DNA of 28,486 nt from a virus. A model generated the notes under the pieces. The model ran no database searches. It saw only the letters and a program-made list of their open reading frames with translations, and was not told the origin of the DNA. The stretch lies in IMG/VR virus record IMGVR_UViG_3300005935_001840, positions 1 through 28,486 of that record; one strand, given 5' to 3'. How positions within the stretch are numbered: position 1 is the first letter of the stretch; each line of letters starts with the position of its first letter. Positions 543 to 28,199 of the stretch are shown piece after piece. A program made the position numbers and the translations under genes.

Positions 543-3500
543 ATGCCTAGAACAAAAAAGCCGCTAACAACAGTTAAAGATTTAATTCAAAAGATGAAGA
601 CAGAGCTATCCTCAAAAGATGGCATCGGAAGTTCAATTCCTGATATTGTTTCTTTTTGCGAAAAAAAAGAATACTTAGATCTTGGTGGACAAGGGATCAT
701 ACTTTATCCTATGCAAAAACTTATTTTAAAAATATTTTATCGAGGATCTGTAGGAAACGAAAATACAGTTTTAACCGAAAAAGAAATCCAAATGTGTAAA
801 GATATAGGATGTGATACTGAAGAAAGAGGAGACTTATTAACAAAATTCGATGATGGAGATATATTCAGACAACTTATTTTGATATGGGGACGGAGATGCG
901 TTAGCGAAGACACTACGATAATAGATCCTTCAACTGGATACCAATGGACTTTTGGAGAACTATGGGATAACGGTAGACGAAAAATAGAGTCTTGGACCTA
1001 CAACGAAGATAAACAAGAAATGGAAATTATTCCAAATGCAGATATTATATATCAAGGCAAGAGACAAGTCTATAAATTAACAACAAACTCAGGTCACGAA
1101 ATAGAATGTACAGATAACCATCCTTTCCTAACACAACGAGGATGGATAAATCTTAAAGATCTAGACATTAAAAAAGATAAAGTTACTATTTGTGAATCTA
1201 TTCCTTTCTTCGGTACGTCTGATGCAATATCAGAAGATGAGGCTGCAATCTTAGGATATATGACAGCAGATGGGAACTGTTCACAATCTTCAACATTTTT
1301 TACATGTGCTAATAAAGAAATTTTAGAAGATTTTACGACCAGAATGAATAATATAAGCGATAATCTTAAGGTTTTTAAAGATCCTTGGACAGGTGCTCGT
1401 TCAGCAGATTGTCAATACAAAGTTACATCCGTTGAAAAACGATATGAAAAACATTTTAGCGAAAAACATCAAAAAGTAATATGTCATCCCAAAAAAAACG
1501 ATTTACAAGAATTATTATACAAACATGATTTAAAAGGAAAAACATGTCATGAAAAATGCGTTCCTGATGCTCTTTGGGATTGCCCTAAAAATGTTATAGC
1601 AGCATATCTAAGAGCACTATTTAGTTGTGATGGATGCCTGTTAAAACGGAATAAAGGTACTTTTGAATTTTCTAGTGTAAATAAGCAACAATCTGTTAAA
1701 GTTCAATCGTTGTTGGCTAAGTTTGGTATATCCGCTCAATTAAGAACTAAAAACGTTAAATCTCGCATTGTTGATGAAAAAGGGATAGAAAGAAAATATA
1801 ATATTTTAAGTTATATGTTACACTTTTCCATTAAAAAATACATAAATATTTTTTTAAAAGAAATAGGCTTAACCGGGAAAAAAGAACAAGTAGAAAGAAC
1901 TATAAAACTTAAAAAAACTGCTATAGGAAGAAAGACCCAACCACTGATATTTTCTAAAATAAGAAGTATAGAAAAAACAGACATTAAACGGACATTCGAC
2001 CTATCTGTGAGTCATAAGAAATCGTTGCAAAACTTTACTGCACAAGGGTTTATAACGCACAACTCAGGGAAAGATTTTTTATGTGGGATAATCATGGCAT
2101 ACGAAGCTATGAGACTACTAGAATGCCCTGGAGGAAACCCTTACGCCATCTATGGATTGAGTGATTCAAACCCAATAACGATTTTAACTGTTGCTACTGC
2201 GGCAGGACAAGCCACACTTGCTTTCAACGAAATCAAAACAAGAATTCTTCACTCTCCTTATTTTCAAGACAAATTCATACCAGACGGTATAGAAGCGAGT
2301 AAAATTTTCCTACTAACACCACGAGATAAAAAAAATAATGATGAGTTTAAATCTAGGACTAAAGGCTCTATCGTTGTTGAAGTAGGACATAGTAACTCTG
2401 ACGCTTTGCTTGGTAAACAGATATTTGTACTGCTGATGGACGAAGTGGCAAGTTATAAAACATCAGGTGGATCTTCTTCAGGCGAAAGAATATTTACCGC
2501 TCTTACGCCTAGTTTGGAAACATTTGGTCGAACCATTAAATTTATTGACGAAAATGGAGAAGAAAAAACGAAACGAGTTCTAGATAGTAAGTTAGTTTGT
2601 ATCTCATCTCCTAGAGGCGAAGAGGGTCTATTCTATAGACTTTACAAAGAAGCTCATTTGGTAAAAAATAGATTAATGTGCAAGCTTCCGACATGGAACG
2701 TTAATACAAAAATGACAGAAGAATCAATAAGAGAAAATAATGAGTCAATGAATAAAGAAGACTTTTTGATGGAGTATGGAGCAGAGTTCTCTGGTACTGG
2801 TGGTGAAAGCTTCTTCGTAAGAGATAAAGTTATGAACTGTTTTAAAGCAGGACTCGAATTACAAAAGACAGGAAGAGCAGGGTTTACGTACTTTGCTCAC
2901 CTAGACCCAGCGACTACAAGTCACAACTATGCTCTTGTTATTATACATAGAGAAAGATATTTAAATCAAGAAACAAATAAAGCTGATTTTAGGATAGTTG
3001 TTGATCAGATAAAATATTGGAAACCAGAACCAGGAAAACCAGTTAGGATAGAAGAAGTTGATGATTACGTCATGAATTTAAGAAGAAAATTTCATTTAGG
3101 TATGGTTACATATGATATTTGGAATTCCATACAAAGTATAGAGAAGCTTAAAAAAGCAGGAGTTCCAGCAAAATGCACTCACTACTCTTCTCAATATAAA
3201 ATGGCGATATATACTCAATTAGAGGTATTAATGAATAGTGACAAGATTTGGATACCTCGACATAAATTGATGATGGATGAAATGATTCATTTACAAAGAA
3301 AAATTACTGTAAAAGGTTTTAGAGTTAGTGCTCCTAGAGATGGAGATGTTAGGACCGATGACCTTTGCGACAGTTTAGCGGGTGCGTGCTATACTTCCAT
3401 GAATGCTGTAGCTCATAAACTGCCTGGAGCCAGATTAGTTAATATGGGAGTTGTACCAAGCAGTAACACAGTTAATTGGAAATCAATGAGCGGATCAATG

Positions 3501-3599
3501 GGAACTGGTTCTGGTGGTCAAGTCGCAAGAAATATGGAAACGAGACAACCTCAAAACGGACAGAATAAAAATATTCCACCTTCTATCTTCAATCAATAA
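543..3599 (+). CDS. terL: Terminase large subunit precursor, interrupted by an intein
   Basis: This is the ATP-driven DNA packaging motor with a C-terminal headful nuclease; it docks on the portal. The 1018-aa precursor splits into exteins 1-118 and 508-1018 around a 389-aa intein, giving a 629-aa mature protein, a normal TerL length. Joining the exteins restores a Walker A motif, GRR-SGKD (G116-R118 with S508-D511). Walker B is VLLMDE (D633/E634), followed by a coupling-type segment CISSPRG. The RNase-H-like nuclease shows HLDPATT (D788), TYDIWNS (D858) and RTDDLCDSLAG (D939, D940, D943). The start is set by AAGGA at 532-536, six bases upstream. No small terminase was recognised nearby. The protein can function only after splicing, because the intein splits the P-loop. 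Confidence 0.95.
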   Translation: MPRTKKPLTTVKDLIQKMKTELSSKDGIGSSIPDIVSFCEKKEYLDLGGQGIILYPMQKLILKIFYRGSVGNENTVLTEKEIQMCKDIGCDTEERGDLLTKFDDGDIFRQLILIWGRRCVSEDTTIIDPSTGYQWTFGELWDNGRRKIESWTYNEDKQEMEIIPNADIIYQGKRQVYKLTTNSGHEIECTDNHPFLTQRGWINLKDLDIKKDKVTICESIPFFGTSDAISEDEAAILGYMTADGNCSQSSTFFTCANKEILEDFTTRMNNISDNLKVFKDPWTGARSADCQYKVTSVEKRYEKHFSEKHQKVICHPKKNDLQELLYKHDLKGKTCHEKCVPDALWDCPKNVIAAYLRALFSCDGCLLKRNKGTFEFSSVNKQQSVKVQSLLAKFGISAQLRTKNVKSRIVDEKGIERKYNILSYMLHFSIKKYINIFLKEIGLTGKKEQVERTIKLKKTAIGRKTQPLIFSKIRSIEKTDIKRTFDLSVSHKKSLQNFTAQGFITHNSGKDFLCGIIMAYEAMRLLECPGGNPYAIYGLSDSNPITILTVATAAGQATLAFNEIKTRILHSPYFQDKFIPDGIEASKIFLLTPRDKKNNDEFKSRTKGSIVVEVGHSNSDALLGKQIFVLLMDEVASYKTSGGSSSGERIFTALTPSLETFGRTIKFIDENGEEKTKRVLDSKLVCISSPRGEEGLFYRLYKEAHLVKNRLMCKLPTWNVNTKMTEESIRENNESMNKEDFLMEYGAEFSGTGGESFFVRDKVMNCFKAGLELQKTGRAGFTYFAHLDPATTSHNYALVIIHRERYLNQETNKADFRIVVDQIKYWKPEPGKPVRIEEVDDYVMNLRRKFHLGMVTYDIWNSIQSIEKLKKAGVPAKCTHYSSQYKMAIYTQLEVLMNSDKIWIPRHKLMMDEMIHLQRKITVKGFRVSAPRDGDVRTDDLCDSLAGACYTSMNAVAHKLPGARLVNMGVVPSSNTVNWKSMSGSMGTGSGGQVARNMETRQPQNGQNKNIPPSIFNQ
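897..2063 (+). mobile_element. TerL intein with LAGLIDADG homing endonuclease (Cys1, ...HN/Ser+1)
   Basis: This is an in-frame 389-aa insertion, residues 119-507. It begins with C-V-S-E-D-T-T-I, a class 1 block A. A block-B-like stretch ECTDNHPFLT follows, and it ends FDLSVSHKKS...GFITHN before Ser508, which gives the terminal His-Asn and a nucleophilic +1 Ser. The two LAGLIDADG-type motifs are ILGYMTADG and YLRALFSCDG, each with a conserved acidic residue, so the endonuclease looks intact. Insertion is exactly in the P-loop between GRR and SGKD, a typical intein refuge. Boundaries are read directly from the motifs and the restored extein. Confidence 0.94.
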
Positions 3600-3675: not shown

Positions 3676-4437
3676 ATGTATAATTTAAAAAAACAAGCCC
3701 AAATTAAGCCAACCGAAAAGATGCTACAAGAACAAAATAAGTTTTATGGTGTATCCCAAACTGGAGATGCCGTAATAACCGACAAACAACTTAAAGATGA
3801 TAGAAAAGACCCACAAGGTGATAAAATCGGAGAAAAACAACTTAAAGACGTTCGAAATGCATCCGATTCTATTATAACAGAAAAACAACTTAATGTTGGG
3901 ACCGGATCTTCTATAGATACAAGAGGAGATAAAGGTGTCGTTCTCATGGATATGCCCTTAGAGGCTGCCAGTAAGGCACAGAAAGACTTTGACAAAGAGA
4001 ATAAGGGAAACCTATCAGCAGAAAATAAAGCCTTCTGGGACGCTCTTGTAGAAGGTGGATCTAAAAAGATCAAAAACAATGTTCAAGGTAGTCAACTTCT
4101 CTCTAATTACGATTCAAGAGAAGATTTTAATAAAAGTAATCCATCTTTTGATAAAAAAGCTTCCTTGTTATCTGATGCTGATGCAATGTTGTATCACGTT
4201 TATAAACAAGCTGCTTCGATGGGTAGAGAGTTAACCACTGACGAACAGCTTATCGTAAATAGCATTAACGCTAATAAAATGAGAATTCTTGCTGATCATA
4301 AAGCAGATATTGCTGCTGATAAAGAGCATAGGACTGATACTTTCGATATGGAGGGAGATGATCTTGAAGACGAATTGCAAGAAGAAAAAGATTTTGAACA
4401 ATATAAAAAAGATCATCCAAACGAATTTGTTTCATGA
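3676..4437 (+). CDS. Hypothetical virion/assembly protein with three TEKQ-type repeats
   Basis: I do not recognise a family. The 253-aa protein is hydrophilic and mostly predicted disordered or helical, with no membrane segment. It starts M-YNLKKQAQ, one of the FNLxK / KxAQ motifs that recur in this cluster. Residues 33-72 carry three spaced copies of a motif: VITDKQL, KIGEKQL and IITEKQL. The same peptide occurs six times in the scaffold part of the 18650-25450 gene. The C-terminus is acidic (DMEGDDLEDELQEEKDFE). The start is supported by GGAG at 3665-3668. The last four bases overlap the next gene as ATGA, suggesting translational coupling. The shared repeat argues for a prohead core or scaffold-associated role, which is inference. 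Confidence 0.8.
   Translation: MYNLKKQAQIKPTEKMLQEQNKFYGVSQTGDAVITDKQLKDDRKDPQGDKIGEKQLKDVRNASDSIITEKQLNVGTGSSIDTRGDKGVVLMDMPLEAASKAQKDFDKENKGNLSAENKAFWDALVEGGSKKIKNNVQGSQLLSNYDSREDFNKSNPSFDKKASLLSDADAMLYHVYKQAASMGRELTTDEQLIVNSINANKMRILADHKADIAADKEHRTDTFDMEGDDLEDELQEEKDFEQYKKDHPNEFVS
3772..3891 (+). repeat. Three TEKQ-type peptide repeats
   Basis: Coding repeats at 3772-3792 (VITDKQL), 3823-3843 (KIGEKQL) and 3871-3891 (IITEKQL). The first two are each followed by K-D-[DV]-R. Codons differ between copies, so the peptide rather than the DNA is conserved. The same motif recurs at 21254-21643. Confidence 0.85.
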
Positions 4438-11731: not shown

Positions 11732-12363
11732 TGGCATTACAAAAACATAAGAATTCTGGATTAATAAGCTTTGTAGATAAAGTAATAGAATCCAAAGCAG
11801 CAGAAGCAGTAGTTAAAGAGAATAATGAAGCTCCTCTTAAACCCGCTCAAAAAGCAGACAATAGTTCGGCGATAGATAATAGGGCTGGTTCTATACTGTC
11901 AGCAGGAAGAGGAAGCGTCTCCGATTTCGGTGGACCATCTAAACATATGGGATCACAAACGTCTAATAGTATTTGGGACTCTAAAATTGTTGAATCTTTA
12001 GCTAAAAAACAAGATAACGGCGAAAAAATCAAAGAAGAAAATCTTCAACTAAAATCTAATAGAAACGCAATCAAAGAAGAAAGACTTGATAACATGGCTC
12101 AAGCTTTACAAGAAACAGATATGAGAAAAGCTGATAGCGTTGCAAGCTCAGGAGAATTTAGCGGCAGCAAATACAGTATGCCTCAAAATAACATGAGTAT
12201 CTTTGATAATGCTGATTTTGAAAGAATACCTGAGAAAACTGCTGGTGAACAACTAGAAAAAAAAGAAGTCGTTAAAGATGAATCATGGAAAGATATTAAA
12301 AAACCTACTACAACAAACGATAAATTCAATAAAATGTTTGATGACATAACCAATGACAAATAA
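11731..12363 (+). CDS. Hypothetical disordered/helical protein
   Basis: A 210-aa protein with no recognisable family, cysteines or membrane segment. It is rich in Lys, Glu, Asn and Ser, with a helical middle (IKEENLQLKSNRNAIKEERL) and motifs such as FERIPEKTAGEQ near the end. The ATG overlaps the previous stop (TAATG) and has AGGAG at 11722-11726, so it is well positioned for coupled translation. It overlaps the next gene by 11 bases. Composition and neighbours suggest an assembly or internal head protein. Confidence 0.65.
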   Translation: MALQKHKNSGLISFVDKVIESKAAEAVVKENNEAPLKPAQKADNSSAIDNRAGSILSAGRGSVSDFGGPSKHMGSQTSNSIWDSKIVESLAKKQDNGEKIKEENLQLKSNRNAIKEERLDNMAQALQETDMRKADSVASSGEFSGSKYSMPQNNMSIFDNADFERIPEKTAGEQLEKKEVVKDESWKDIKKPTTTNDKFNKMFDDITNDK

Positions 12364-13546
12364 AAAAGCACAAGCTAATGATCCTCAAGTTGCTAACGTA
12401 GAAGAACTTGTACAACAGATGCAAGAGGCTGGATTGGCACTGCCAGAAGATATTGGCATTTGGACACCAGAACAAATAGTTGTTTGGGCAGACGAGTTAG
12501 GCTTTCAAGCAGATAAGGGGAATGATGTTATGGATTTGATAGAAGATCACGCGAATGACCAAAGAGATTTAGCCATACAACAAGGAACCGATATGATAGC
12601 AAAAACAAAAACTTTTAATCTAAAAAAAGCACAATTTAATCCAGATACAGATGAATATGGAATGCCCGATAATAGAGGCGAATTAGCTCAAGATCTTGAA
12701 CCAGATCCATGGGAAGATGGACTTATGGACAATGATACTGGAGATAAATGGGGAAACCACGCAGAATTTAAAGAATGGTTAGACCAACAAGCAGACAGAG
12801 CTACAGCAGCATCCATAATCGGAGGAAAAATACCCGAAGCATATGCTCAATCACTAAATGATGCTTTCGAACAGTACTATGAAGGAGATATAACAGATGA
12901 AGAGAAACTGCAAATCGCAAGTAGAGTTTTTGAGATCCTTCCTGATGAAAATAAAATCCTTGAAGCAGATCCTGCTGAAGGAATTATAGATGCTGAATAT
13001 ACACAAGTTTCAGCTTTCGTCAAAGAAATGGATGGTCAAATTAAAAAACTAGCTCAACAAGATGCTAAAAAATCATTCAATCTAACTAAAACAGCACAAC
13101 ATAAAGGTGCTGTTGATAATATGTTTATGTATGGACCAAGCGAAACCAGAATCGACCCGTTCCTAAGACAACCTATCTCTGACTATCACATAGTCGAAAG
13201 AAATAAAGGCTTTGGACTAGTTGTTGATGATATCTGGAATATCGACTGGGAAACAATGTGGCGTGGTAATATTATGGACAAATATAGTCGTCCATATAAA
13301 GATAAAGATGGCAATTGGACTGGCGGATATATTCAAAAACGTTTTGAAGTTGATAAATGGATTCCCGAAGAAAATAATATGCAACTCAAGCCTGGTCAAT
13401 TGCGTAACCCTTATATCGCTAAAGAAAGAAGTACCGAATCTAGACTAGAAGCTATGAGAGCAGAAAACGATAGAGGATACGAACCTGCGTCATCAGGAAA
13501 GCCTTATAATTGGTCTAAAGAAGCTTCATCTAAAAAAAAAAGCTAA
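12353..13546 (+). CDS. Putative virion protein with repeated FNLxK-AQ motifs; upstream partner of an A10 frameshift
   Basis: A 397-aa protein, family not recognised. It begins MTNKKAQ and carries two further copies of the cluster motif: FNLKKAQ (12614-12634) and FNLTKTAQ (13076-13099). Between them lies an acidic helical domain. The C-terminal third (about 255-385) looks folded: MYGPSETRIDPFLRQPISDY, GFGLVVDDIWNIDWETMWRG and KDGNWTGGYIQKRFE. The frame ends SSKKKS-stop at 13544-13546, directly after ten A residues. A -1 slip there continues into a Zn-ribbon reading frame that has no start codon of its own before its first cysteine. The real product may therefore be, in part or always, a fusion of about 552 aa. 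Confidence 0.8.
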   Translation: MTNKKAQANDPQVANVEELVQQMQEAGLALPEDIGIWTPEQIVVWADELGFQADKGNDVMDLIEDHANDQRDLAIQQGTDMIAKTKTFNLKKAQFNPDTDEYGMPDNRGELAQDLEPDPWEDGLMDNDTGDKWGNHAEFKEWLDQQADRATAASIIGGKIPEAYAQSLNDAFEQYYEGDITDEEKLQIASRVFEILPDENKILEADPAEGIIDAEYTQVSAFVKEMDGQIKKLAQQDAKKSFNLTKTAQHKGAVDNMFMYGPSETRIDPFLRQPISDYHIVERNKGFGLVVDDIWNIDWETMWRGNIMDKYSRPYKDKDGNWTGGYIQKRFEVDKWIPEENNMQLKPGQLRNPYIAKERSTESRLEAMRAENDRGYEPASSGKPYNWSKEASSKKKS

Positions 13547-14027: not shown

Positions 14028-17000
14028 ATGCCTATTACAAAACTTTCATTACTAAAAAAAGATAATCAAGGGAAAAAAGCCCTGATCGCCTCAACCACAG
14101 GCTATAAAACCGGAAACGGAAATGACTATCGAAATAAAAGCGGACTAGCAAGTAGCCTTACAGCTAACATGCCTATAACAAAATGCGCCCAAATGGCAGG
14201 GTCAGGAGCCTCAGTCATCTGGACACAACCTATGTTCTTTAGCCCACTTCACACGCCGCAGAACTGGCAAATCGCATCACGACGCAGAGAAGTTTATCAG
14301 TGGTCGTTCATATCTCCTTGTGATATAACACTTTATGACGGTTCTTTGAAGCCAATTAACATGATATACGAAGAAGTTTTTGCAAATATAGAAGCTAAAT
14401 CAGACTATAGTACTTCTTCGTGTATTAAGTCTATAGATAGCGAAGACGCACCTATTATTCAAGACGGATATGGTAATATATCTCTTCCCGATAGAGCCTC
14501 AAAACATAAAGTAAAGAAAAAAGCTAATAAAATTAAAGCTCTTGGAGTAGCAGAACCTCTAGTTTTAACAAATGATCATGATTGTATTGTTATAAAAAGA
14601 GAAGATATTCAATGTCATAAAAGTAAATGGAATAAGAAAAAATGCGTAGTTGATCATATTGCTCCTACGTGTGAAAGATTTAAATGCAAAGAATGTATAG
14701 ATAAAGAATATAAAATATCAAAAATTAAAGCTAGAGATATCGAAAAAGGTGATCATATTCTTGTTCCATTTAATACAGATATAATCCCTAGCGTTATTGA
14801 TAATGAAGATAAAGCTAGATATGCAGGTCATTTAGCTTCAGACGGATGTGTTTCTGAAGAAAGAAGATCTGTTAGAATATGTATGGGGGATGATGAAAAA
14901 CCGTTTGTGTTCCCGACTATCAGTAAAGTTCACAAATCAATGGGAGGAAATGATAATCTTGTAAATGTGTCAACAATACAAGAAGTAAGAAGTTCTAAAA
15001 AAAACATCCTTGATTTTGCTTTTCAGTTGGTAAAAGGTAAAGGAGCAGAGAAGAAGTTCACAGATCAAGTAACGCTACTAGATCCTAAACTACAGCTTGA
15101 TGTTATAGGAGCATACATTCAATCTGACGGAACTTACAACAAACAGAACTCATGTGTTGAGATTACAACTTATTCTCGTCATTTGGGGAATCAGTTAATG
15201 CTTATGTGTTTTAGATGCGGAATACTTGCTAGATTAAACAAGCAACCTATTAGTAGATCTAAAAAGACTTTTAAAACTAAAAATACTCATAGATATATTT
15301 TAAATATTTCTTCTTCTGATTTACCTAAGATTGCAGAATACGTACCTGGCAAACTTTCTGATATTAATATAAAAAAAAGAAATGATAATAGAAGATTTTT
15401 CTGGAAGAATTTTGTTGTATCTCCAGTTACTTCTAATGAATCATTTGATTATGAAGGTGACGTATATGACATAAGGGTTCCTGGTTCATATACAGTAACT
15501 GCTAATGGTATTGCCGTTCATCAATGTCGATTTTACTATGACAATGAATGTAAGGTCGCTGCTGCCGTAGATTTTTACGCGACATTTCCAGTTAATGGTT
15601 TCACTCTTGAGTGTAAAAACAAAAAAGTTCTAAAATATTATGAACGTCAGACTAGAAGGCTTAGGATCAATCATTGGTCAAAACTTATAAGTCATGAGAA
15701 CTTTCTTATTGGTGACGTTTTTCCTTGGGTTGAAGTAGAATGTAAAATTTGTGGAGGAAGTGGAACGCTTCCTAATGGGACCTCATGCAATCACTCTGGC
15801 GGATCTATAAGTAGGATCGTTATACTTAATCCTGATTGGATTGAAGTTCAGATGAATCCATTGGTATCTGAGCCAGTAATTGCTTTGGTTCCAGATGAAG
15901 AATTAAGAATGATTGTCCAAAGAAAGAGACCAAAACAAATTTATGACAATTTGCCTAAGAGATTGATTGAGTTAGTCTCTACTGGTGCTCCCATACCCCT
16001 CTCTAATAGGTCTGTGAGCCACATTAAACACAATCCGAGTCCATATGGGGCATATGGAAATCCGTTGCTTAGAAGGGCGTTTACAGTCCTTGCTTATAAA
16101 ACTAAACTAATGACAGCCAATTGGATTGTAGCTGAAAGACTTATTCTTCCTGTTAGAGTTGTAAAAATAGGAGATAAGGACAGACCGGCTGGTCCACAAG
16201 ACATATCTGACGTTTCTAATCAGCTTTCTGCTGTTGCAAATGATCCTAATTTAACGTTGGTTACTCACCATGCATTTGACTATGAATGGCACGGAAGTAC
16301 TGGCAAGATTCACAATATTAATAATGAAATAGAGCAAATTGGAAAAGAGCTTCTTGATGGATTTATGTTAAATCAGGCGTTACTTAACGGGGAAGCTGGT
16401 TCCTACAGCAGTGCCCAGGTTGGTGTAGAAGTAATGATTAGGAGGCTTGAAAGTTGGCGTGCGGGTTTAGCTGAATGGATTGAACAGCATATTTTTCTCC
16501 CTATTGCAATGATGCAAGGATTTATTGATGAGGAAGAAAGTAAAGAAATTGGGGAAACGGTCTATCTTTATCCAACTGTAAAATGGAATGATTTACAGCT
16601 TAGAGATACTTCTAGTCAGAAGCAGATGCTTGTACAGCTTCATGATAAGGGGTTGATTTCATCTCAGACTTTGTTAGAAGAGTTTGATATGGATTATGAC
16701 CAAGAGATTGAGAGGATAAGGGAAGAGGCTATTAATGTTGGACCGGGTGGTCAGATGGGTGGAGGAATGCCTGGTGGCGATATGGGTGGAGGGATGCCAG
16801 GTGGTATGGATATGGGAGGTGGGATGCCTGGAGGTATGGACATGGGTGGAGGAATGCCCGGAGGTATGCCAGGTGGAGATATGGGAGGAGGAGTCCCAGG
16901 TGGTATGCCAGGTGGAATGGGAGGAGCGGCAGCACCTATGGGAGCAGCGGCTGGTGGCATGAATCCTCCATTAAAGGTTGAAAAGAGAGGCAAAGGAAAT

Positions 17001-17510
17001 GGACCTCAAGAACAAGCACCACCAGAACCACAGCCTATGCTTAAGCTTACAAAGCTAGAAGGTAGAATGCACAAGATGCTTATGAATTTAGGTTTACCTC
17101 CTGAATATAAAATGTTTGCACAATACAAAGTAGCAATTGCTGGAGAGCAGCAACCATATGTTATAGATTTCGCTATCCCTAGTATAGGCATGGGTTTAGA
17201 GGCAGATGGAAATATCTGGCACGATCAAGCGGATTCAAAAGCTCATGACATACAGAGAGATCAAAAGTTATCTAACATTGGTTGGAGAATCTTAAGATTT
17301 AATGAGGAGGCTATAGAAGAACGCATTGATGCGGTACGAGATGTTGTAATAAAAAATATTAAAGATTCGATTAAACAAAGGAAAAGTGCGGAAGATGGTG
17401 AAATGATTAAAGTGGCTAATGAAATCTCGGAAGGTGACCCTACTAAACTTATATATAAAAAAGTGGAGTTAGATAACAATCTGGGACATATGTACTTAAT
17501 CGGAACATAA
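14028..17510 (+). CDS. Portal protein precursor with intein and C-terminal DUF559/Vsr-like nuclease domain
   Basis: This forms the dodecameric portal ring at the unique capsid vertex, through which DNA is packaged. The 1160-aa precursor carries an intein at residues 93-499. Joined exteins read REVYQW-CRFYYDNE, KVAAAVDFYATFPVNGF, typical of large-phage portals, followed by long alpha/beta regions (PYGNPLLRRAF, WIVAERLILPVRVVKIGDKD, EAGSYSSAQVGVEVMIRRLE). A possible Zn site C572-x2-C575...C587-x-H589 sits in the body. Residues 905-978 are a Gly/Met/Pro repeat linker. Residues 1007-1120 are a PD-(D/E)xK-like nuclease domain: E1011, YVIDFAIP (D1047), GLEADGNIWH (E1058, D1060, H1065), RDQKL and GWRILRF. 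TTGGAG at 14017-14022 fixes the start. The mature protein is about 753 aa, longer than usual because of the fused nuclease. Confidence 0.88.
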   Translation: MPITKLSLLKKDNQGKKALIASTTGYKTGNGNDYRNKSGLASSLTANMPITKCAQMAGSGASVIWTQPMFFSPLHTPQNWQIASRRREVYQWSFISPCDITLYDGSLKPINMIYEEVFANIEAKSDYSTSSCIKSIDSEDAPIIQDGYGNISLPDRASKHKVKKKANKIKALGVAEPLVLTNDHDCIVIKREDIQCHKSKWNKKKCVVDHIAPTCERFKCKECIDKEYKISKIKARDIEKGDHILVPFNTDIIPSVIDNEDKARYAGHLASDGCVSEERRSVRICMGDDEKPFVFPTISKVHKSMGGNDNLVNVSTIQEVRSSKKNILDFAFQLVKGKGAEKKFTDQVTLLDPKLQLDVIGAYIQSDGTYNKQNSCVEITTYSRHLGNQLMLMCFRCGILARLNKQPISRSKKTFKTKNTHRYILNISSSDLPKIAEYVPGKLSDINIKKRNDNRRFFWKNFVVSPVTSNESFDYEGDVYDIRVPGSYTVTANGIAVHQCRFYYDNECKVAAAVDFYATFPVNGFTLECKNKKVLKYYERQTRRLRINHWSKLISHENFLIGDVFPWVEVECKICGGSGTLPNGTSCNHSGGSISRIVILNPDWIEVQMNPLVSEPVIALVPDEELRMIVQRKRPKQIYDNLPKRLIELVSTGAPIPLSNRSVSHIKHNPSPYGAYGNPLLRRAFTVLAYKTKLMTANWIVAERLILPVRVVKIGDKDRPAGPQDISDVSNQLSAVANDPNLTLVTHHAFDYEWHGSTGKIHNINNEIEQIGKELLDGFMLNQALLNGEAGSYSSAQVGVEVMIRRLESWRAGLAEWIEQHIFLPIAMMQGFIDEEESKEIGETVYLYPTVKWNDLQLRDTSSQKQMLVQLHDKGLISSQTLLEEFDMDYDQEIERIREEAINVGPGGQMGGGMPGGDMGGGMPGGMDMGGGMPGGMDMGGGMPGGMPGGDMGGGVPGGMPGGMGGAAAPMGAAAGGMNPPLKVEKRGKGNGPQEQAPPEPQPMLKLTKLEGRMHKMLMNLGLPPEYKMFAQYKVAIAGEQQPYVIDFAIPSIGMGLEADGNIWHDQADSKAHDIQRDQKLSNIGWRILRFNEEAIEERIDAVRDVVIKNIKDSIKQRKSAEDGEMIKVANEISEGDPTKLIYKKVELDNNLGHMYLIGT
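14304..15524 (+). mobile_element. Portal intein with LAGLIDADG endonuclease (Ser1, terminal His-Gln, Cys+1)
   Basis: A 407-aa in-frame insertion. Block A is SFISPCDITLYDG...KPI, aligning with the C-x3-D-T-x-I pattern if Ser93 is residue 1. That choice gives a clean extein join, YQW-CRFYY. The end is YEGDVYDIRV...GIAVHQ before Cys500, so the usual final Asn is Gln. Block-B-like LTNDHDCIV is present. Endonuclease motifs are AGHLASDG and GAYIQSDG. The alternative start, Cys98, would leave five extra residues in the portal and fits the portal less well. Residues about 180-210 carry Cys/His pairs (CHKSKWNKKKC, CERFKCKEC) that could bind zinc. Confidence 0.88.
16744..16944 (+). repeat. Gly/Met-rich tandem coding repeat in portal
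   Basis: Imperfect repeats of GGGMPGGMDM and GGGMPGGDM type encode residues 905 to about 975. They form a flexible linker between the portal body and the C-terminal nuclease domain. Long reverse-strand Pro-rich reading frames here are by-products of the repeat. Confidence 0.85.
17031..17372 (+). other. DUF559/Vsr-like nuclease domain within portal gene
   Basis: Domain-level call. The order LTKLEGRMHKML (E1011), LPPEYKMFAQYKV, YVIDFAIPSIGMGLEADG (D1047, E1058, D1060), WH, RDQKLSNIGWRILRF matches DUF559 / very-short-patch-repair-like endonuclease domains. Their conserved E, D-F, E-x-D-G, H and R-D-x-x-L positions are all present, so it is probably catalytically intact. Confidence 0.82.
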
Positions 17511-17519
17511 ACTATTTTT

Positions 17520-17951
17520 ATGAAAACATTTAATCTTTTAAAATTTGCTAGTAGGAAAAGGATTAGGGACAGAGGTATCAGGTGGGACGAGACGTATCAC
17601 GAAAGATCTGCTCCTCTTAAAAAGCGTTTTGATAAAGAGATTGGTTCTGGTTCTTATCATAGATGGGAGGGACACGATTATACGACAAACTCAGATTATT
17701 TTGTCGTTGTTGGTCCAGCGATACAAAAAAGTGGACAGAAATCTTTTTTTGCAGGAGTTAAGAAACTTCCTCCAAGATATAAAAGAGAGAAAGTTAAATC
17801 ATATGCTCCGAGTGGGAAATACTTTACAAATATTCATTCTGCTCTTAGTCACGCGGTAGAGATGTGGGGAGTTCAATTCCCTAAAAATCAGCAAAAATAC
17901 GATGAAAAGAACTTAGCTAACGTAGAAATACCAAGACACATAAAAGGCTGA
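17520..17951 (+). CDS. Hypothetical small basic protein
   Basis: A 143-aa protein, not recognised. It starts MKTFNLLKFASRKR, the clearest N-terminal copy of the FNLxK motif that recurs in the 3676 and 12353 products. The rest is basic and aromatic (YHRWEGHDYTTNSDYFVVVG, YKREKVKSYAPSGKYFTNIH) and looks like a small beta-rich domain. There is no membrane segment. It begins 10 bases after the portal stop with a poor Shine-Dalgarno, so it is probably translated by read-on from the portal gene. The N-terminal motif suggests a packaged or processed virion component, which is inference. Confidence 0.65.
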   Translation: MKTFNLLKFASRKRIRDRGIRWDETYHERSAPLKKRFDKEIGSGSYHRWEGHDYTTNSDYFVVVGPAIQKSGQKSFFAGVKKLPPRYKREKVKSYAPSGKYFTNIHSALSHAVEMWGVQFPKNQQKYDEKNLANVEIPRHIKG

Positions 17952-18649: not shown

Positions 18650-21600
18650 ATGGCTTTTAACAAAATAGCGACAAACAATTTAACTGTTCAAAAAGTAGAT
18701 CCTCTGAACAGACCTGATTGGACTGAATATAATATGAAGCGGATTAAAACTGCTTCTATCATGAAAAATAGAGAATCTGATTTAGGTGGTTTTGATATTG
18801 ATGCTGCAATTCATAAACATCCAGAACATTTATTTGTAAAAATATTCGCAATCAAAAAAGATGAAGTTAATGATAATGGCGATGCTTTTTCTGAGGGAGA
18901 GCTAATAAAAGCGACTCCATCATTCATAGGCGTCCCTGTTTTCTGTAATCACCAAAATGATGACATAGAAAAAGCAAGAGGCATTGTTGTTCATGCTTGG
19001 TATGACAAACTAAAAGGTGGGATATATACTATTGCAAGAGTTGATAGAGTCGCTTGGCCCAGTTTAGCTAGAGGGATCGAACAAGAAATAGTAACTGGGT
19101 CATCCATGGGCGCAACTCGTGGAAATGACCTCGTATTAATGGGAGACGGATCAAAAAAGAAAGTTAAAGATCTTAAAAAGGGAGATACAGTACGAACCCA
19201 TACAGGCAAAAAAGAACAAATTGAAGTTGTCTGTAAAACTCAAGAACACGATGAATTATATCTTGTCAAATGGAATGGGAATACAAAAGGACTAGCTTTA
19301 AGTCATGAACATCCATTATTAGCAATTAAATCAGAAGATATATACTATACTAACAAATCTAAAAAACTATACAGAAAAACTCCAAGTGAAATTAGAGATA
19401 AAATAAAACCATCATTTATTGAATCTAGACTAGTTAAGCCAGGAGATTATGTACTTGAATATGTTCCGCAAAAAGAAATAGTAGTAGATGAAATTAATGA
19501 TGATATCGCTTTTTTGCTTGGGTTATATGCTGCTGAAGGATATATAAATGAAAAAAGTGTAGGATTCTGTCTTGGGATGCAAGATAAAGAAAGTCAACAT
19601 TATATTAAATTGTTGGATGTTCTTAAAACTAATTTTCCTGATGCAAAAATAAGAATAGATGAGAAGCTAGAAAGAAATGGTTTATATGTTGTTACATGGA
19701 ATAAAAAATTAGTTGAATTGTGTGACAAATACGTAGGTAGAGGAAGTCACGAGAAAAAACTTCATAACGATGTATTACTTCTTCCTAAAAATCAACAAAA
19801 ACTAATACTTGGAGCATATCTGGACGGAGATGGATGTTCTATTAAAAAAAGGACTAAGAAAGATGGACAATCTTCAGGTCAAGGAGCAATGCAAGCATCT
19901 TCTGCATCAGTTGATCTTCTTTCTGGAATGCGTATTATATGTATGAGACTTGGCGTTTCTGCCTGTTTGTCTAGACACGAAAGAACAGCTTCTAGTTCTA
20001 CAGTTATGGATCAAAGTACACAATATGTTGAATATATGCTATATATGGCAAACGGAATTAGCACTATTCTTCATAAATACAGTTCTAAAGCACACGACAA
20101 TTTAAAAGCTATTAGAATTAAATCAGATTCATTTACATATGATTGCTATATGGCTCATAAAATTAAAAACGTAGAAATTATACCTAATGAAGAAACAACA
20201 TATTATGTTCAAGTCGGAAAAATCGAAGATAAAGACAGTGATCATAGTTATATAATCAATGATATAGCTACGCATAACTGCTCTGTAACTGCTTCTGTGT
20301 GCAGCATTTGCCACAATTGTGCATCTGTCGCTGATGAATATTGTGATTGTGTAACGCATAGAAAAAATAAGAAATTTAGTGGAAAACAAAAATGTTCATA
20401 TCACGATAGTCCCATTAAAATTGAAGGAAGCGAAGATACATGTCCTATCTGCGGATCTACATCCAAAGATAAACAAACAAATGAATACAAAGAAGCTCAA
20501 ATATATGAACATAACTTTGGTATCAAATTTATCGAAGATTCATTTGTAGTTAATCCTGCTTGTCATGATTGTTTAGTTCAAGAAATATTCAATAAAACTG
20601 GCATGGAACAAAAGGTTGCTTCGCTCAAAGCAAGACTTGTTAAAATGGCTAATGCTGAAGCATGCACATCTGGGGCTTGTTCTATAGATGGACAGATGAG
20701 AAAAGTAGCGGGGAAACAGGAATTGAATGAGCTTGTAACGGCTATGGATATCGTTGAAAAAGTAGCTAAATCATTAATGGCTCAAAAAGAGTATGTTTCG
20801 ATGGAATATGTTAGTGATTTAGTAAAAACTTTAGCTGACATGCAAATTATTTCTGACGAACTTATAGAGATGGGTTATGGACAACTACCTTCTCCGCAGT
20901 TAACTGGAGCGGAAAGTATAGAGCTTCCAAAAGAAGGATCTGAAGAGATAGGTGCTACACAGCAGCCACTTCCTGGTGCTAAACCTCTTCAGCCAACTGC
21001 TCCGACTCAACCTGTTGGAACGCAACAATCTGATATGAGTGGTCTTGGGACTGTAACTGTTCCAAAATTATCAAGAAAAAAAGAGGACTTTTTAAAACAT
21101 TCTCAAATATTAATAGAGAAGTTTAATAAACTAGGTGAAAATCTTACAAAAATATCTCAAGATATGTTATCAAATAAGGAGTTTAATATGGCCGACACCA
21201 AAGACAGTCAAAACAAAGTTGATATAGAAAAGACTGCTGAAGCATCTACAGATGTCATCACTGAGAAGCAACTACCTCAAAAAGATCAAGGGGCAGGACA
21301 GCAATGGCAAGAAAACACAGATGTTACCACTGAGAAACAACTCAATGATCCTAACAAACATAAAGATGCTGGCTTAACAGGCAAATTGCCTAGCCCGCAA
21401 GAACGTACTGGATCGTATGAAGTTATTACTGAAAAGCAATTCAACAGCGTTACGGCTGACTATGTTGCTCGTTGGGGAGATTTCCCAGAAGTTATCACTG
21501 AAAAGCAATGGACTGAAATGAGTCGTTTGGTTGGTTCTGAGCTTAGTAGAGATCAGGGCGATATTATAACAGAAAAACAAATGGGCGATTTCCTGTCTCA

Positions 21601-24600
21601 TCACAGATATGTAGATCAGAACGTTATTACTGAGAAGCAGCTTCCTAAGCAGGATGGTGATCTTGCTCGTTGGGCATATACGTTTGATGCAACAAAGGTT
21701 GTCAAACTAGCTATGGACTCTGTTTCTGATACAATCGCTTTCTATAATAAGACTCCTGCTGAAGTAATGAAAGCAGCAGCTTTCATTAACGATTCTAAAA
21801 ACATCAATAAAGCAGCGATGCTTGTTCTAATTAATGCTATGCCGAACAAGAAAGAAGCTATCACAGCAGAAAAGAGCAAATACAATTACTTCTCTAAACT
21901 TGCATCGTCAAGCGTAGAGACTCCAAATGCAGTTGATGCTTTGATCGTAAGTATGAGTAGTAACCTTAAAGATATTAGTGCTGACGATCTCATTGAAGGT
22001 TCTAAGCATGTTCTTTCTAGCGAAAAAGGTTTAAAGCAAGCTGAAGAGTCTGCTAAGATCAAACTTGCTAATGGTCCTACGGTTGATGAGGTTATCTCTA
22101 AAACGGCACGATTTGATTCAGCTATTAATGAACTTGGTAGAGAAGAGGATGGTCTTTATCAGATTAGAGCTTCTATCAGCGATATTGGTGCAAATATAAC
22201 AGATAAAAAAGCATTTGTAGAAGCGACTCATAAGTTTGCAGATGAGCAGATTGATGACAGCGGTCTTAAAACAGCTATTACTAATATAGATATTGACGAG
22301 AAAGCTGGATTCGTTATTGCAACTGTTAAGGATGTTAATGCTTTGACTGAGGAAGAGAAAACATCTGTTGCTCAGTTTAAAGTTGATTCGCTTAAAAAAG
22401 AAAAGATTAATCCATTCCTTCCAAAACAAAAAGTTGAAGAGAAAGAAGAGGTTGACACTCCTGTTTTAGCGAGTAGAAAAGAAAGAAGAAATGCTTTGGT
22501 TAAAGAGGCTCAGATGTTGGGCGGCGAGATGGGTGGACAGGGTGGAGCGGCTCAAGGTCCAGGAGCGGGAGCAACACTTCCTAATGCTGGCGGCGATCCA
22601 ATGGATCAAGCTCCTATGGAAAGTTTCGAAAATTCTGATCTTGGAGAAGATTTAGGTGGAACTGAAGATTTACTGCCTAAACCTCCTGGCTCCGTTTGCC
22701 CAGTTTGCACCAGTCAAGATGTTGATATCATCAAAGGTGCTGGCAAATGTAATAACTGCCAATCTGAATTCGAATATAAAGTTTCTATCAATGTTACTCG
22801 ATGGGCTGATGTTCTTGGAGATAGTCAAGATGATGGGGCTGAAGAAGAGAGTCCAATCGAAGGCGAAGGGTTTGAACTCCCAGAACCTGGTGCTATGGAA
22901 GAGCCTGTAGCTGAAATGGCTGGAATGCCAGCAGTAGCATCCACAAACTTTGCTGCAATGGCTAGAATAACAAAAGAAGCAGCAGTTAAGATATCTGAGG
23001 CAGGTATCGAGTTAGGTTCCGTCAGTCCTTTCACTGGAACAACTCAAACTGTCAAATTAGCTAATGGCGAAAGAAAATGCATGGATACTGGTCTTACTTA
23101 TAAAGTATCTTATGCAGTAAATGCCAAACAGCCAGAAAAGATTTACGCTCAATGGGAATGGAATCCAACTGCATTAGATTTTGAATGTAGTGAATGCTCA
23201 AGAAAGAAAGACATGTTTATTAAAGCTCTCGCATCAAGCGATATCACAGAAGCTGGATTTGATGCTTTGGCTCCTAAAGAAAAGGGTAATGTTATTCTTG
23301 CTATGAAGAAATCTGGAATTACAAAGACAGCAAGTACTGCTAAATCTACGATAAACGTTTACAAGCAAGCTCTTGGTCCTGTCAAAGATTTCCCAGAAGA
23401 AATTTGCAAAGAAAGAATTGCACGAAGATACGGACTTGATGCTGTAGCTCTGAGCGGTCCTTACGAAGGCGAACTTCTTTGTGACGCAATCTGCAAGGCT
23501 CTCAAGAAAGCAGAAGTTTATTCAAATTACCTCGCTATCAAAGTTGCTGATATTTGGTGCGATAAGAGCGGAACCGAAGAATGCATAGAAGATTATGTCA
23601 GAGAAGGTTTCCAACTTAAACAAGCTTCAACAATTTGTCAGACAATGAAAGCTAAATATGCTCAGTTTGATGACATCGTTTCCGACGAAATTGGCGACAT
23701 GGTTGAAGAGGATGAAGGTTTTGATGGTCCTGAAGATGACTTCGATGGCGACTTTGATGGCGACTTTGATCCATTCGAAGGAGAAGGCGATATCGAAGGC
23801 GAATCTACAGTAACCATCGAACTTCCAATCGAAGTTGCAGAACAATTCGCAGAAGCAGTTGCAGTTGCTACTGAAGACAGCAGCGAAATGGACGGAATGA
23901 ATGATATGGACGATATGGGTGATGGTATTGAAGTTGACGTTGAAATTGAAGGACCAGACGGTCCAGATGGAATTATAGAAGATGCAACTGATGAAATCGT
24001 AGAAGATATAACTGACGGAGAGATAGGCGATGAGATCGTTGACGAAATCGATGATGAAGAGGCTCTTGAAGGCGAAATTATTGAAGGCGAAGAAAAAGAC
24101 ATGGCACCTGGCGGAGAGGTTTGTCCTCATTGCGGCGAAACTAAATCTATGGAAATGGGTACAGGTAATGCTGAAGCTGTTGTCGAAGATGAAGATCATG
24201 TTGCTCCAGTTGAAGATGAATTAAAAAATTGTAAAAATAATAGAGGAACTGAAGAGCAGGTAGAGAATATACAAGAAAGACAGTTCAAAGAAAGTGATCC
24301 ACGAACTATCGCAGAGACAGAAGAAGACATTGTAAGAGAATCGAATCAAATGAGTAAAGGACATATTAATAAAACGAATGAGATCAACATGGACCTTTCG
24401 GGAGTTCTAGATGTTCTTAATAAATCGGCAGATAAGATTGGTCTTCAGAATGCTCAAGACACTGCAAAAGATTATTCTGGCAAATCAACGATTGGCGATG
24501 AAGATGCGTTCACTGCTGATAAAGCTTCTGCACCAACTGGAACTGCAACAATGGGAGCAGAACCAGCAGACTTGCAGAAATTAGATAACGCTTCCGCTCC

Positions 24601-25450
24601 TACTAGCGATGCCCGAATCGATGGAGAAAAAGATGACGCAGCTTTGAAACCAGAGCTTGATGATAAAGCAACTGGCGGCGAAGAGGGAGCAGGGAATTCA
24701 AAAGCAGCATCTACAAAAAATAGAGTTAACGCTCTTGCCGATACGCTTATTAAAAATGCAGACGAAAAGAAAGTCAAAAGAGACCAAGTTCAAGATGACG
24801 AAGATGTAAAGCCTTATAGCGGCGACAGCTTCATCGGAAATGAAAAAGAATCTATTGGCGACATCCCTGAAGCAAAAACTACACCTGATGGTATTCCAGA
24901 AGATAATGACTTTATAGGAAACGAACAGGAATCTATTGGCGATAAGCCAGATCCTGTTAAAGATACACCAGATATTCCTGCAAAAGATGATAGAATTGGC
25001 GGCGAAAAAGATAATGAAAAAATCGCTCCAGAAAAAGAAGATCAAATGACAGGAAAAACTGATAGCGGAGCACTTGCGAGTAGCAAGGAAGATTCCAAAG
25101 TAACCAAAGAAGCATACGCATTAGCTGGTAGAATGTTGCAAAAAGGACTTATTAGTCCTGACCAGCTTGGAATTAAGGTAGCAGAACTTTCTGTTTACAA
25201 GCCAAGTCAATTGGCTGACCTTGAAAAAAGTATGTTTGTGAAAAAAGGACTCGACGCTTCGTCAGACGGATTAGAAGGGCCAGCCGTACTTATCTCTGAG
25301 ACTAGTACAGAAAAACGAGCACAATCAGAACATGTTAGTCCACAAGATGAACTGACAGGTAAACTGCAAGGTTTGTTTAGTCTAGACATAAGAAACAAAG
25401 AGGCCGACAGTATTCCAGACACAGAACTCCGTCAAAAGTACGGACGATAA
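18650..25450 (+). CDS. Prohead protease-scaffold fusion precursor with intein
   Basis: This directs prohead assembly and maturation. The 2266-aa precursor opens with a T4 gp21/S78-type protease: KIFAIKKDEVNDNGDAFSEG, FCNHQND (His101), then VTGSSMG-CSVTASVCSIC (Ser152; the intein sits between G154 and C544), a Cys-rich segment, and FGIKFIEDSFVVNPA. Residues 680-846 are a helical linker. An in-frame internal start is at M847. Residues 869-998 hold six TEKQ repeats. A long helical region follows, then a Gly-rich linker, a Zn ribbon (C1350, C1353, C1367, C1370), C1513-x2-C1516, a very acidic region (about 1690-1820), C1825-x2-C1828, and IG[NG]E repeats (2061-2122). AAAGGA at 18638-18643 sets the start. 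The length is far above any ordinary protease or scaffold gene. Confidence 0.9.
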   Translation: MAFNKIATNNLTVQKVDPLNRPDWTEYNMKRIKTASIMKNRESDLGGFDIDAAIHKHPEHLFVKIFAIKKDEVNDNGDAFSEGELIKATPSFIGVPVFCNHQNDDIEKARGIVVHAWYDKLKGGIYTIARVDRVAWPSLARGIEQEIVTGSSMGATRGNDLVLMGDGSKKKVKDLKKGDTVRTHTGKKEQIEVVCKTQEHDELYLVKWNGNTKGLALSHEHPLLAIKSEDIYYTNKSKKLYRKTPSEIRDKIKPSFIESRLVKPGDYVLEYVPQKEIVVDEINDDIAFLLGLYAAEGYINEKSVGFCLGMQDKESQHYIKLLDVLKTNFPDAKIRIDEKLERNGLYVVTWNKKLVELCDKYVGRGSHEKKLHNDVLLLPKNQQKLILGAYLDGDGCSIKKRTKKDGQSSGQGAMQASSASVDLLSGMRIICMRLGVSACLSRHERTASSSTVMDQSTQYVEYMLYMANGISTILHKYSSKAHDNLKAIRIKSDSFTYDCYMAHKIKNVEIIPNEETTYYVQVGKIEDKDSDHSYIINDIATHNCSVTASVCSICHNCASVADEYCDCVTHRKNKKFSGKQKCSYHDSPIKIEGSEDTCPICGSTSKDKQTNEYKEAQIYEHNFGIKFIEDSFVVNPACHDCLVQEIFNKTGMEQKVASLKARLVKMANAEACTSGACSIDGQMRKVAGKQELNELVTAMDIVEKVAKSLMAQKEYVSMEYVSDLVKTLADMQIISDELIEMGYGQLPSPQLTGAESIELPKEGSEEIGATQQPLPGAKPLQPTAPTQPVGTQQSDMSGLGTVTVPKLSRKKEDFLKHSQILIEKFNKLGENLTKISQDMLSNKEFNMADTKDSQNKVDIEKTAEASTDVITEKQLPQKDQGAGQQWQENTDVTTEKQLNDPNKHKDAGLTGKLPSPQERTGSYEVITEKQFNSVTADYVARWGDFPEVITEKQWTEMSRLVGSELSRDQGDIITEKQMGDFLSHHRYVDQNVITEKQLPKQDGDLARWAYTFDATKVVKLAMDSVSDTIAFYNKTPAEVMKAAAFINDSKNINKAAMLVLINAMPNKKEAITAEKSKYNYFSKLASSSVETPNAVDALIVSMSSNLKDISADDLIEGSKHVLSSEKGLKQAEESAKIKLANGPTVDEVISKTARFDSAINELGREEDGLYQIRASISDIGANITDKKAFVEATHKFADEQIDDSGLKTAITNIDIDEKAGFVIATVKDVNALTEEEKTSVAQFKVDSLKKEKINPFLPKQKVEEKEEVDTPVLASRKERRNALVKEAQMLGGEMGGQGGAAQGPGAGATLPNAGGDPMDQAPMESFENSDLGEDLGGTEDLLPKPPGSVCPVCTSQDVDIIKGAGKCNNCQSEFEYKVSINVTRWADVLGDSQDDGAEEESPIEGEGFELPEPGAMEEPVAEMAGMPAVASTNFAAMARITKEAAVKISEAGIELGSVSPFTGTTQTVKLANGERKCMDTGLTYKVSYAVNAKQPEKIYAQWEWNPTALDFECSECSRKKDMFIKALASSDITEAGFDALAPKEKGNVILAMKKSGITKTASTAKSTINVYKQALGPVKDFPEEICKERIARRYGLDAVALSGPYEGELLCDAICKALKKAEVYSNYLAIKVADIWCDKSGTEECIEDYVREGFQLKQASTICQTMKAKYAQFDDIVSDEIGDMVEEDEGFDGPEDDFDGDFDGDFDPFEGEGDIEGESTVTIELPIEVAEQFAEAVAVATEDSSEMDGMNDMDDMGDGIEVDVEIEGPDGPDGIIEDATDEIVEDITDGEIGDEIVDEIDDEEALEGEIIEGEEKDMAPGGEVCPHCGETKSMEMGTGNAEAVVEDEDHVAPVEDELKNCKNNRGTEEQVENIQERQFKESDPRTIAETEEDIVRESNQMSKGHINKTNEINMDLSGVLDVLNKSADKIGLQNAQDTAKDYSGKSTIGDEDAFTADKASAPTGTATMGAEPADLQKLDNASAPTSDARIDGEKDDAALKPELDDKATGGEEGAGNSKAASTKNRVNALADTLIKNADEKKVKRDQVQDDEDVKPYSGDSFIGNEKESIGDIPEAKTTPDGIPEDNDFIGNEQESIGDKPDPVKDTPDIPAKDDRIGGEKDNEKIAPEKEDQMTGKTDSGALASSKEDSKVTKEAYALAGRMLQKGLISPDQLGIKVAELSVYKPSQLADLEKSMFVKKGLDASSDGLEGPAVLISETSTEKRAQSEHVSPQDELTGKLQGLFSLDIRNKEADSIPDTELRQKYGR
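19112..20278 (+). mobile_element. Prohead protease intein with LAGLIDADG endonuclease (Ala1, ...HN/Cys+1)
   Basis: A 389-aa insertion, residues 155-543. Removing it restores GSSMG-CSV at the protease active-site serine. Block A is A-T-R-G-N-D-L-V-L-M-G-D-G followed by KVKDLKKGDTVRT, so residue 1 is Ala rather than Cys or Ser. Block-B-like LALSHEHPLLA is present. The end is YYVQVGKIEDKDSDHSYIIN...ATHN before Cys544. The usual block F Asp is Val and there is no block F Cys, so it does not look like the Trp-Cys-Thr class 3 type; an Ala1 class 2 (KlbA-like) mechanism fits better. Endonuclease motifs are LLGLYAAEG and LGAYLDGDG. Confidence 0.9.
21176..21190 (+). promoter_or_regulatory. Internal ribosome binding site and in-frame ATG inside the protease-scaffold gene
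   Basis: AAGGAG (21176-21181) precedes ATG 21188 by six bases, identical in quality to the best gene starts in the window. The ATG is in frame (codon 847). The product would be a 1420-aa scaffold-like protein, MADTKDSQNK onwards, lacking the protease and beginning just before the TEKQ repeats. Lambda's Nu3 scaffold is made this way from within the C protease gene. Confidence 0.65.
21254..21643 (+). repeat. Six TEKQ peptide repeats in the scaffold region
   Basis: Copies at 21254-21274 (VITEKQL), 21323-21343 (VTTEKQL), 21422-21442 (VITEKQF), 21491-21511 (VITEKQW), 21563-21583 (IITEKQM) and 21623-21643 (VITEKQL). Spacing is about 60-100 bases. Codon choice varies while T-E-K-Q is invariant and the next residue is always large and hydrophobic. 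A degenerate copy, IQERQF, lies near 24270. Confidence 0.9.
24830..25015 (+). repeat. IG[NG]E peptide repeats near the scaffold C-terminus
   Basis: FIGNEKESIGD (from 24830), FIGNEQESIGD (from 24911) and RIGGEKDNE (from 24992), separated by Pro/Asp-rich linkers with DGIPEDN and DIPAKDD. Related earlier segments are TIGDEDAF near 24488 and RIDGEKDD near 24616. They are coding repeats in an acidic, probably disordered tail. Confidence 0.8.
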
Positions 25451-27114: not shown

Positions 27115-27210
27115 ATGTACGAAGAAATAATAAATTATATTAAAGAAGTAGAGATCAAATGCCGATATATAATGAGAGAGTTCTATTATTTTAGAAAGGA
27201 AAGAACATGA
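27115..27210 (+). CDS. Possible leader peptide gene before the homing endonuclease
   Basis: A 31-codon frame in the 170-base gap: MYEEIINYIKEVEIKCRYIM and a short basic tail, ending in TGA that overlaps the ATG of the endonuclease as ATGA. The overlap suggests coupling. The ribosome binding site is poor and composition is simply AT-rich, so it may be chance. The rest of the gap holds only AT-rich sequence. Confidence 0.25.
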   Translation: MYEEIINYIKEVEIKCRYIMREFYYFRKERT

Positions 27211-28199
27211 GAGAACAACCCCATTATACAAATTTATTAACAGAAGAATTTTTCACAGAACATTATATACGAGGGAGAATGTCTTACCCGAAGATAAGAG
27301 AAATGCTATTAAAACAAGGACATAACATTCATGTTGGGACATTATATAGTTATGCTAAAAAATTAGGGATAGGTAGAAATAGATCAGAAGCAAAAAGAAA
27401 TAGAGAAAAAGATCCTCTTGATTGGGATAAAAAATATATAACAGAAAGTATCATTGAAGACATTGATGGATTCCTTTTAGGAGATGGAGGGCTACAAACA
27501 ACATACAAAGGTAAAGCAAAAGTTTCTAGATTATCTTGTGGTGTACAGTATGAAGAATTTTGCAAATATCTAATGAGTGGTTTTAAAGCCTACAAATCTT
27601 CCTATTCAAAATGTAAAGATAGTCATATGAATTCTGGGTTTGTATGGAACGGAAGGTCAAGATTTCATCCTGATCTTTATATGCAGCTTCAAAGATGGTA
27701 TATCAAAGACAAAAGCGGATCATCAAAAAAACAACCACCTAACGATGTAAGAATAACTCCTAGATCTGTAATGATGTGGTATCTTGGCGATGGATCTTGT
27801 GTGCAAACGAATAATACTGTAGTTATTCGTTTATCAACTGATGGATTCGATAAAGAAAGAGTGGAATTTTTAGCTGATAAAATGAAAGAAAAAGGTATAG
27901 ATTGTTATAGAAACGGCGATAATCGCATACAAATTAAAACAACTGCTGTCCCTGCCTTCTTTAAGTTTATTGGAAAAGAGTCTCCTATTAAATGTTATGA
28001 TTATAAATTTGACTTACCTGAATGGAGATTTGAAGCAAAAAGAATGAAAGCTGTTGCTGACGAACTAGGAATTGATTATCACCAATTAGCTCATCTAGTT
28101 AAGATTGGTAAGATCCCTTGTTACAGGGCTAGTGAGAAGGGTAGACCTATATTTCTGCCTGAGCATATAGAAGTTGTAAAGAAAGCATTTAGCTTATAA
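27207..28199 (+). CDS. Free-standing LAGLIDADG homing endonuclease
   Basis: A 330-aa protein with two LAGLIDADG-type motifs, GFLLGDGG (88-95) and MMWYLGDG (189-196), separated by about 100 residues as in single-chain enzymes. The N-terminus (residues 14-60) looks like a helix-turn-helix module (MSYPKIREMLLKQGHNIHVG, TLYSYAKKLGIG). The C-terminus (about 285-328) looks like an excisionase/MerR-type HTH (VADELGIDYHQLAHLVKIGK, then YRASEKGRPIFLPEHI). It would cut a specific DNA site and spread by repair-driven copying. It has its own AAGGA (27196-27200) and lies after a terminator. The cleavage site may be the uninterrupted capsid-to-next-gene junction of related phages. Confidence 0.88.
   Translation: MREQPHYTNLLTEEFFTEHYIRGRMSYPKIREMLLKQGHNIHVGTLYSYAKKLGIGRNRSEAKRNREKDPLDWDKKYITESIIEDIDGFLLGDGGLQTTYKGKAKVSRLSCGVQYEEFCKYLMSGFKAYKSSYSKCKDSHMNSGFVWNGRSRFHPDLYMQLQRWYIKDKSGSSKKQPPNDVRITPRSVMMWYLGDGSCVQTNNTVVIRLSTDGFDKERVEFLADKMKEKGIDCYRNGDNRIQIKTTAVPAFFKFIGKESPIKCYDYKFDLPEWRFEAKRMKAVADELGIDYHQLAHLVKIGKIPCYRASEKGRPIFLPEHIEVVKKAFSL

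Follow-up and report, generated by a model that had tools for sequence, protein, structure and literature searches.

A putative DUF559/Vsr-type nuclease domain is fused to the portal protein in a clade of uncultured, mostly very large phages

The window, meaning the whole stretch of DNA analysed here, comprises 28,486 bases and is a virus record of IMG/VR; a search in it for RNA families and tRNAs returned none. On its plus strand, the open reading frame at 14028-17510 runs without an internal stop and encodes a 1160-residue portal precursor that includes an intein, a linker and a C-terminal nuclease domain. Alignment and motif enrichment define the N-terminal part of the portal (residues 1-97, 14028-14318), which is variable as far as a conserved TKxAQ at residues 51-55, where the A-Q is near-invariant in the alignment; the region before this motif is possibly a propeptide. 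An intein with a LAGLIDADG endonuclease follows (residues 98-499, 14319-15524), recognized by PF14528, PF14890 and TIGR01443, the latter for the C-terminal splicing region. The next extein residue is C500, and the insertion is missing from the same place in intein-free relatives. The post-intein portal core (residues 500-904, 15525-16739) is 56-95% identical in relatives. It matches phrog_16240 (E=1.4e-40) and, above the cut-off, Portal_Mu PF06074 (E=7.4e-8), and the model of an intein-free relative (L007) matches the solved portals of HFTV1, G20c, lambda and Mu, placing the protein among portals by both sequence family and fold. The preliminary description, made from the sequence of the window, had identified the portal correctly but did not mention the intein that splits it. 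Inteins are present in three head genes of the window, those for TerL (543-3599, adjoining Walker A), the portal (14028-17510) and the protease/scaffold protein (18650-25450), and single portals of relatives hold several inteins, up to about four.

The core is followed by a Gly/Met/Pro-rich linker (16740-17045), at whose end lies KVEKRGKG (16971-16994), a basic patch that is conserved. Across 35 relatives the linker is 77-137 residues long, with 32% Gly, 13% Pro and 11% Met, and a basic motif is found in 33 of the 35; the long Gly/Met linker reported earlier is real. The full-length portal model, a monomer of the L007 protein with a mean pLDDT of 55, has low confidence; it shows helices to residue 492, disorder until about residue 590, which includes the linker, and the nuclease thereafter. 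In the window, the nuclease domain spans residues ~1007-1115 (17046 to ~17372) and is followed by a variable C-terminal tail (17373-17507) that carries the motif EMIKVAN at 17400-17420, recognized through motif enrichment in C-terminal tails. The interval 17031-17510 previously assigned to the nuclease is therefore correct only for 17046 to ~17372, the remainder being the end of the linker and the variable tail. As read from the sequence, portal, linker and putative nuclease share one frame, an architecture that is well supported.

Residues 1042-1111 match DUF559 (PF04480) at 39.3 bits, well above the cut-off of 20.6 (E=6.6e-10), and the same residues match REase_MTES_1575 (PF18741) below its cut-off. 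An AlphaFold2 model of the domain (pLDDT 84) was used in a fold search, where it matched 3hrl (Z 12.1, rmsd 1.6, 92 aligned), I-Bth0305I (3r3p; Z 11.4, rmsd 2.4, 97 aligned) and the Vsr-DNA complex 1cw0 (Z 10.1). The matching families are thus I-Bth0305I, NGO0050 and Vsr, which places the domain in the Vsr/EDxHD fold; the 5hmC-specific enzymes AbaSI and PvuRts1I gave weaker matches, as did TnsA (Z 6.2). A profile search of solved structures recovered the same EDxHD/Vsr families, in keeping with the earlier assignment, with I-Bth0305I, type member of the EDxHD homing endonucleases (PMC3943268), closest. The gene at 12353-13546 was a candidate for another nuclease copy, but the profile that pointed to it included two wrong seed sequences taken from this very gene, and no Pfam nuclease match was found there; the candidate was rejected.

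Eleven residues are invariant in the first 43 distinct domains: E1011, D1047, E1058, W1064, H1065, D1074, R1077, D1078, G1085, W1086 and R1090. The invariance of the active site is meaningful because these domains are so diverged, with a median pairwise identity of only 44%. Among 96 distinct domains, E1011, D1047, E1058, H1065 and D1074 are intact wherever they are readable, the exceptions to readability being one domain that ends at the contig end (L045) and one whose E lies just beyond the aligned part (L154). E1011, D1047, H1065 and D1074, with E1058 in addition, correspond to the Vsr/EDxHD residue set, the conserved residues being assigned to the EDxHD letters by profile alignment and partly by inference. 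The preliminary description gave the residue numbers D1047 and E1058 correctly, and its claim that the acidic and His/Arg-Asp positions are complete is borne out by the E-D-(E)-H-D set wherever readable in the 96; a search of these domains for relatives with decayed catalytic residues saw none. Variation close to the active site leaves the set untouched. A divergent branch has F for W1064 with the active-site five kept, and four of the 96 domains have C or E in place of D1060 with the rest of the set intact. L010, L051 and L061 form a small group with E or C at this position. In seven contigs (L031, L033, L038, L045, L059, L156 and L164) an intein lies between E1058 and D1060, with A1059 changed to the splicing Cys, at a site between E1058 and the DG..WH motif. 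Inteins prefer conserved, essential sites, and the insertion therefore marks this motif as such a site. Judged by its residues, the putative nuclease domain is apparently catalytically intact.

Relatives were collected with a portal-core query, which gave 63 loci, with a profile built on both clades, which gave further loci, and with the nuclease domain alone, for which the best 80 viral matches were taken. All 80 are portal fusions, bar one contig edge and one contig with a broken frame. The linker and nuclease are in frame on every portal with an unbroken frame that is not truncated by the end of its contig, and the four domain-less loci from the core query (L041, L043, L046 and L055) all run off the contig. 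By a count from the locus list, the fusion is present in about 107 distinct IMG/VR contigs, some of them near-identical, which excludes a frameshift or assembly artefact and confirms the fusion first described from the window in every assessable relative. No case of the domain as a separate gene was found; in one contig (L065/L124, 3300045125_000158) the portal is spread over several frames, but the adjoining nuclease frame is intact, and introns or assembly errors could account for the broken portal. Some of the contigs with the fusion are over 490 kb, the largest being 547,943 bases, and the clade that bears it consists mostly of very large, uncultured phages. Each of 9-10 long nuclease-bearing records searched has one DUF559 match, on the portal. 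A scan of cellular genome contigs found no portal homologues, tblastn of the nuclease against phages returned free endonucleases or hypothetical proteins and no portal fusion, and the more distant portals of Myrna, Rhodococcus E3, Eggerthella LE2-3, Rctr197k and LR745208 have no nuclease.

In close pairs, the dN/dS of the nuclease is 0.018-0.066, with the portal core in the same range, and by this sequence measure the domain is under strong purifying selection. Portal and nuclease distances are correlated (Mantel r 0.81, 0/2000 permutations), and a tree of the portal core (66 rows) has one change in the nuclease trait, with support 98. We read the tree as a clean separation and not as the exact place of gain, because branches are very long for the outermost rows. 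Together this suggests that the nuclease was gained once by the portal and is now fixed, apparently essential and inherited vertically with it.

Just 3′ of the portal is a small conserved gene (17520-17951, 143 aa) that co-occurs with the fused portal: a homologue is found at this place, at a median of 6 nt, in 141 of the 160 nuclease-bearing loci, and none was detected in the phage G clade. Its product is of unknown family, with an N-terminus, MKTFNLLKFAS, that could be a head-targeting signal, and it is possibly an internal head protein or a partner of the nuclease-portal. An obligatory immunity partner is ruled out, because the gene is missing from part of the nuclease-bearing clade (the L064, L129-L143 group). 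The peptide ITEKQL is repeated, with ~8 copies in the 2266-aa protease/scaffold ORF (18650-25450) and ~3 in 3676-4437. Past the major capsid gene, a free LAGLIDADG_2 endonuclease gene at 27207-28199 has a weak MerR-like end.

An observation that bears on the fate of the domain is that the motif [LIVMFTAQ]KxA[QSN] is enriched in the proteins of the window, with 26 copies observed against 4.0 expected and a maximum of 11 in 500 shuffles. It is enriched in most relatives too, where control motifs mostly are not. The motif-bearing head-module ORFs lie at 4919-25450, and the motif often takes the form FNLxKxAQ/S. Within portals it is found in the N-terminal tails, in the C-terminal tails (12 observed against 1.0 expected) and in the linker of one subclade, and rarely in the folded core; copies inside the nuclease domain belong to a conserved helix, and these were left out as evidence. 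We tentatively read the motif as a candidate maturation-protease site, with a head-targeting signal as the alternative candidate, and EMIKVAN in the C-terminal tail of the window's portal is possibly such a protease site. Processing of this kind has a precedent in SPN3US, whose portal loses a propeptide (PMC5694885). The linker copies occur in L013, L015, L016, L018, L019, L020 and L021, whereas the window and most relatives lack one. If the motif does mark such cuts, the window's nuclease, with putative sites in the tails and none in the linker, would probably stay joined to the portal through maturation, and a resident role would then be more likely than ejection.

In solved portals the C-terminal part forms the crown, which in P22 is a barrel inside the head amid the DNA (PMC5850374). 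Because portal C-termini project inward from the crown, the nuclease should, by analogy, hang in the head lumen at the inner mouth of the channel. If, as portals in general do, this one assembles into a twelve-fold ring with its C-termini in the lumen, up to twelve nuclease domains would float around the channel mouth on tethers of ~100 residues, with the conserved basic patch holding each near the DNA. There the nuclease would most likely act on DNA passing or sitting at the mouth, either processing the leading end or cutting unwanted DNA, and the window's own nuclease would probably stay attached after head maturation. We hypothesize, with a probability of roughly 0.55, that a resident portal nuclease, gained once, fixed and apparently essential, acts on DNA at the portal, to process or to police it. 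More tentatively, and at somewhat under even odds, we speculate that the nuclease ring inside the capsid is a gate choosing which DNA is packaged or kept, or a processor of the leading end. Weighing against a resident nuclease is the danger that it would pose, if active in the head and ungated, to the packaged genome; in addition, the lumenal position is taken from other portals, with a full-length model of low confidence. If the resident reading is true, DNA processing or policing at the level of the portal becomes directly testable. The fused portal is also a marker for a clade of uncultured phages, genomes near 500 kb included.

The same evidence bears on other explanations, among them an ejected effector, in which the prohead protease cuts the linker and the nuclease, once free, travels out with the DNA to attack host, plasmid or competitor DNA in the newly infected cell. 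We consider this unlikely, though with a real share of the probability: the linker is long and disordered, the enriched motif falls inside it in one subclade, and giant phages process their portals and carry ejection proteins (PMC5694885), but the motif is a guess at a protease site that the linkers of the window and most relatives lack, and attachment to a part that stays behind at ejection would be an odd route for an effector. Improbable in our judgement is a nuclease that acts in head completion or termination, in the manner of T4 gp4 or the packaging HNH nucleases, held covalently on the portal. It would fit with the separate T4 gp4 homolog that jumbo phages of a different group require for packaging (PMC7824862) and with the weaker TnsA fold match, yet a lumenal position would put the DNA end beyond the clip out of the nuclease's reach, and the RNase H Asp motifs of TerL are kept in these phages (four TerLs aligned). 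Cutting at packaging termination, one of the roles proposed in the preliminary description, is for these reasons less likely if it would take place outside the head; leading-end processing, policing of DNA on its way into the head and action at ejection are the candidate roles left.

A selfish nuclease of the homing type, joined at the 3′ end to a conserved gene, is very improbable, being largely refuted by fixed vertical inheritance. The closest solved relative by profile is a homing endonuclease, and the head genes are full of inteins, with the free LAGLIDADG gene at 27207-28199 in addition. However, occurrence is neither mobile nor patchy, with no loss in assessable relatives and congruence with the portal (r 0.81, one tree change); the nuclease domain is itself an intein target; and Pfam and NCBIfam gave no match to a NUMOD-type DNA-recognition region in the domain, the absence of a match being weak evidence. 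A catalytically dead DNA-binding anchor, to which the conserved basic patch near the domain would be suited, is scarcely credible given five catalytic positions intact across otherwise diverged domains.

Portals are among the best-studied virion proteins and are regarded as passive channels or pressure sensors. To our knowledge, gating of packaging or processing of the leading end by a portal nuclease is known for no tailed virus. A literature search, with most subscription papers outside its reach, found no description of a portal-nuclease fusion (DUF559, EDxHD or Vsr), and together with outgroup portals that lack the domain this supports the rarity implied when the fusion was first called unusual. 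The portal of Bacillus phage G, gp14 (NC_023719), has a homologous core (32% identity) and a Gly/Pro-rich C-terminal tail, but it ends after the tail, without a nuclease. The portals of the phage G relatives L167-L170 likewise end in a Gly/Pro-rich tail without a nuclease, and the 497 kb phage G genome has no DUF559 and no nuclease-profile match anywhere. I-Bth0305I (3r3p) and Vsr (1cw0, 1vsr) share the fold and the E-D-x-H-D type active-site set of the portal nuclease. The first, however, is a mobile intron protein and the second a free repair enzyme, whereas the portal domain has become a permanent piece of a virion structural protein, and no additional DNA-recognition region was detected in it. 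T4 gp4 resembles it as a virion-associated nuclease of the REase fold tied to packaging (PMC7824862), and in another jumbo-phage group a separate virion-associated homolog of gp4 with this fold is needed for packaging (PMC7824862). T4 gp4 is, however, a separate, TnsA-like protein unattached to the portal, while the domain described here lies in the portal frame and has its best matches in DUF559/Vsr. The TerL nuclease is likewise found at the packaging vertex, but it has an RNase H fold and is carried by TerL on the outer side of the head. Because the Asp motifs are intact in the four TerLs aligned, the portal domain is not taken to stand in for a nuclease lost from TerL; it comes in addition to the one on TerL.
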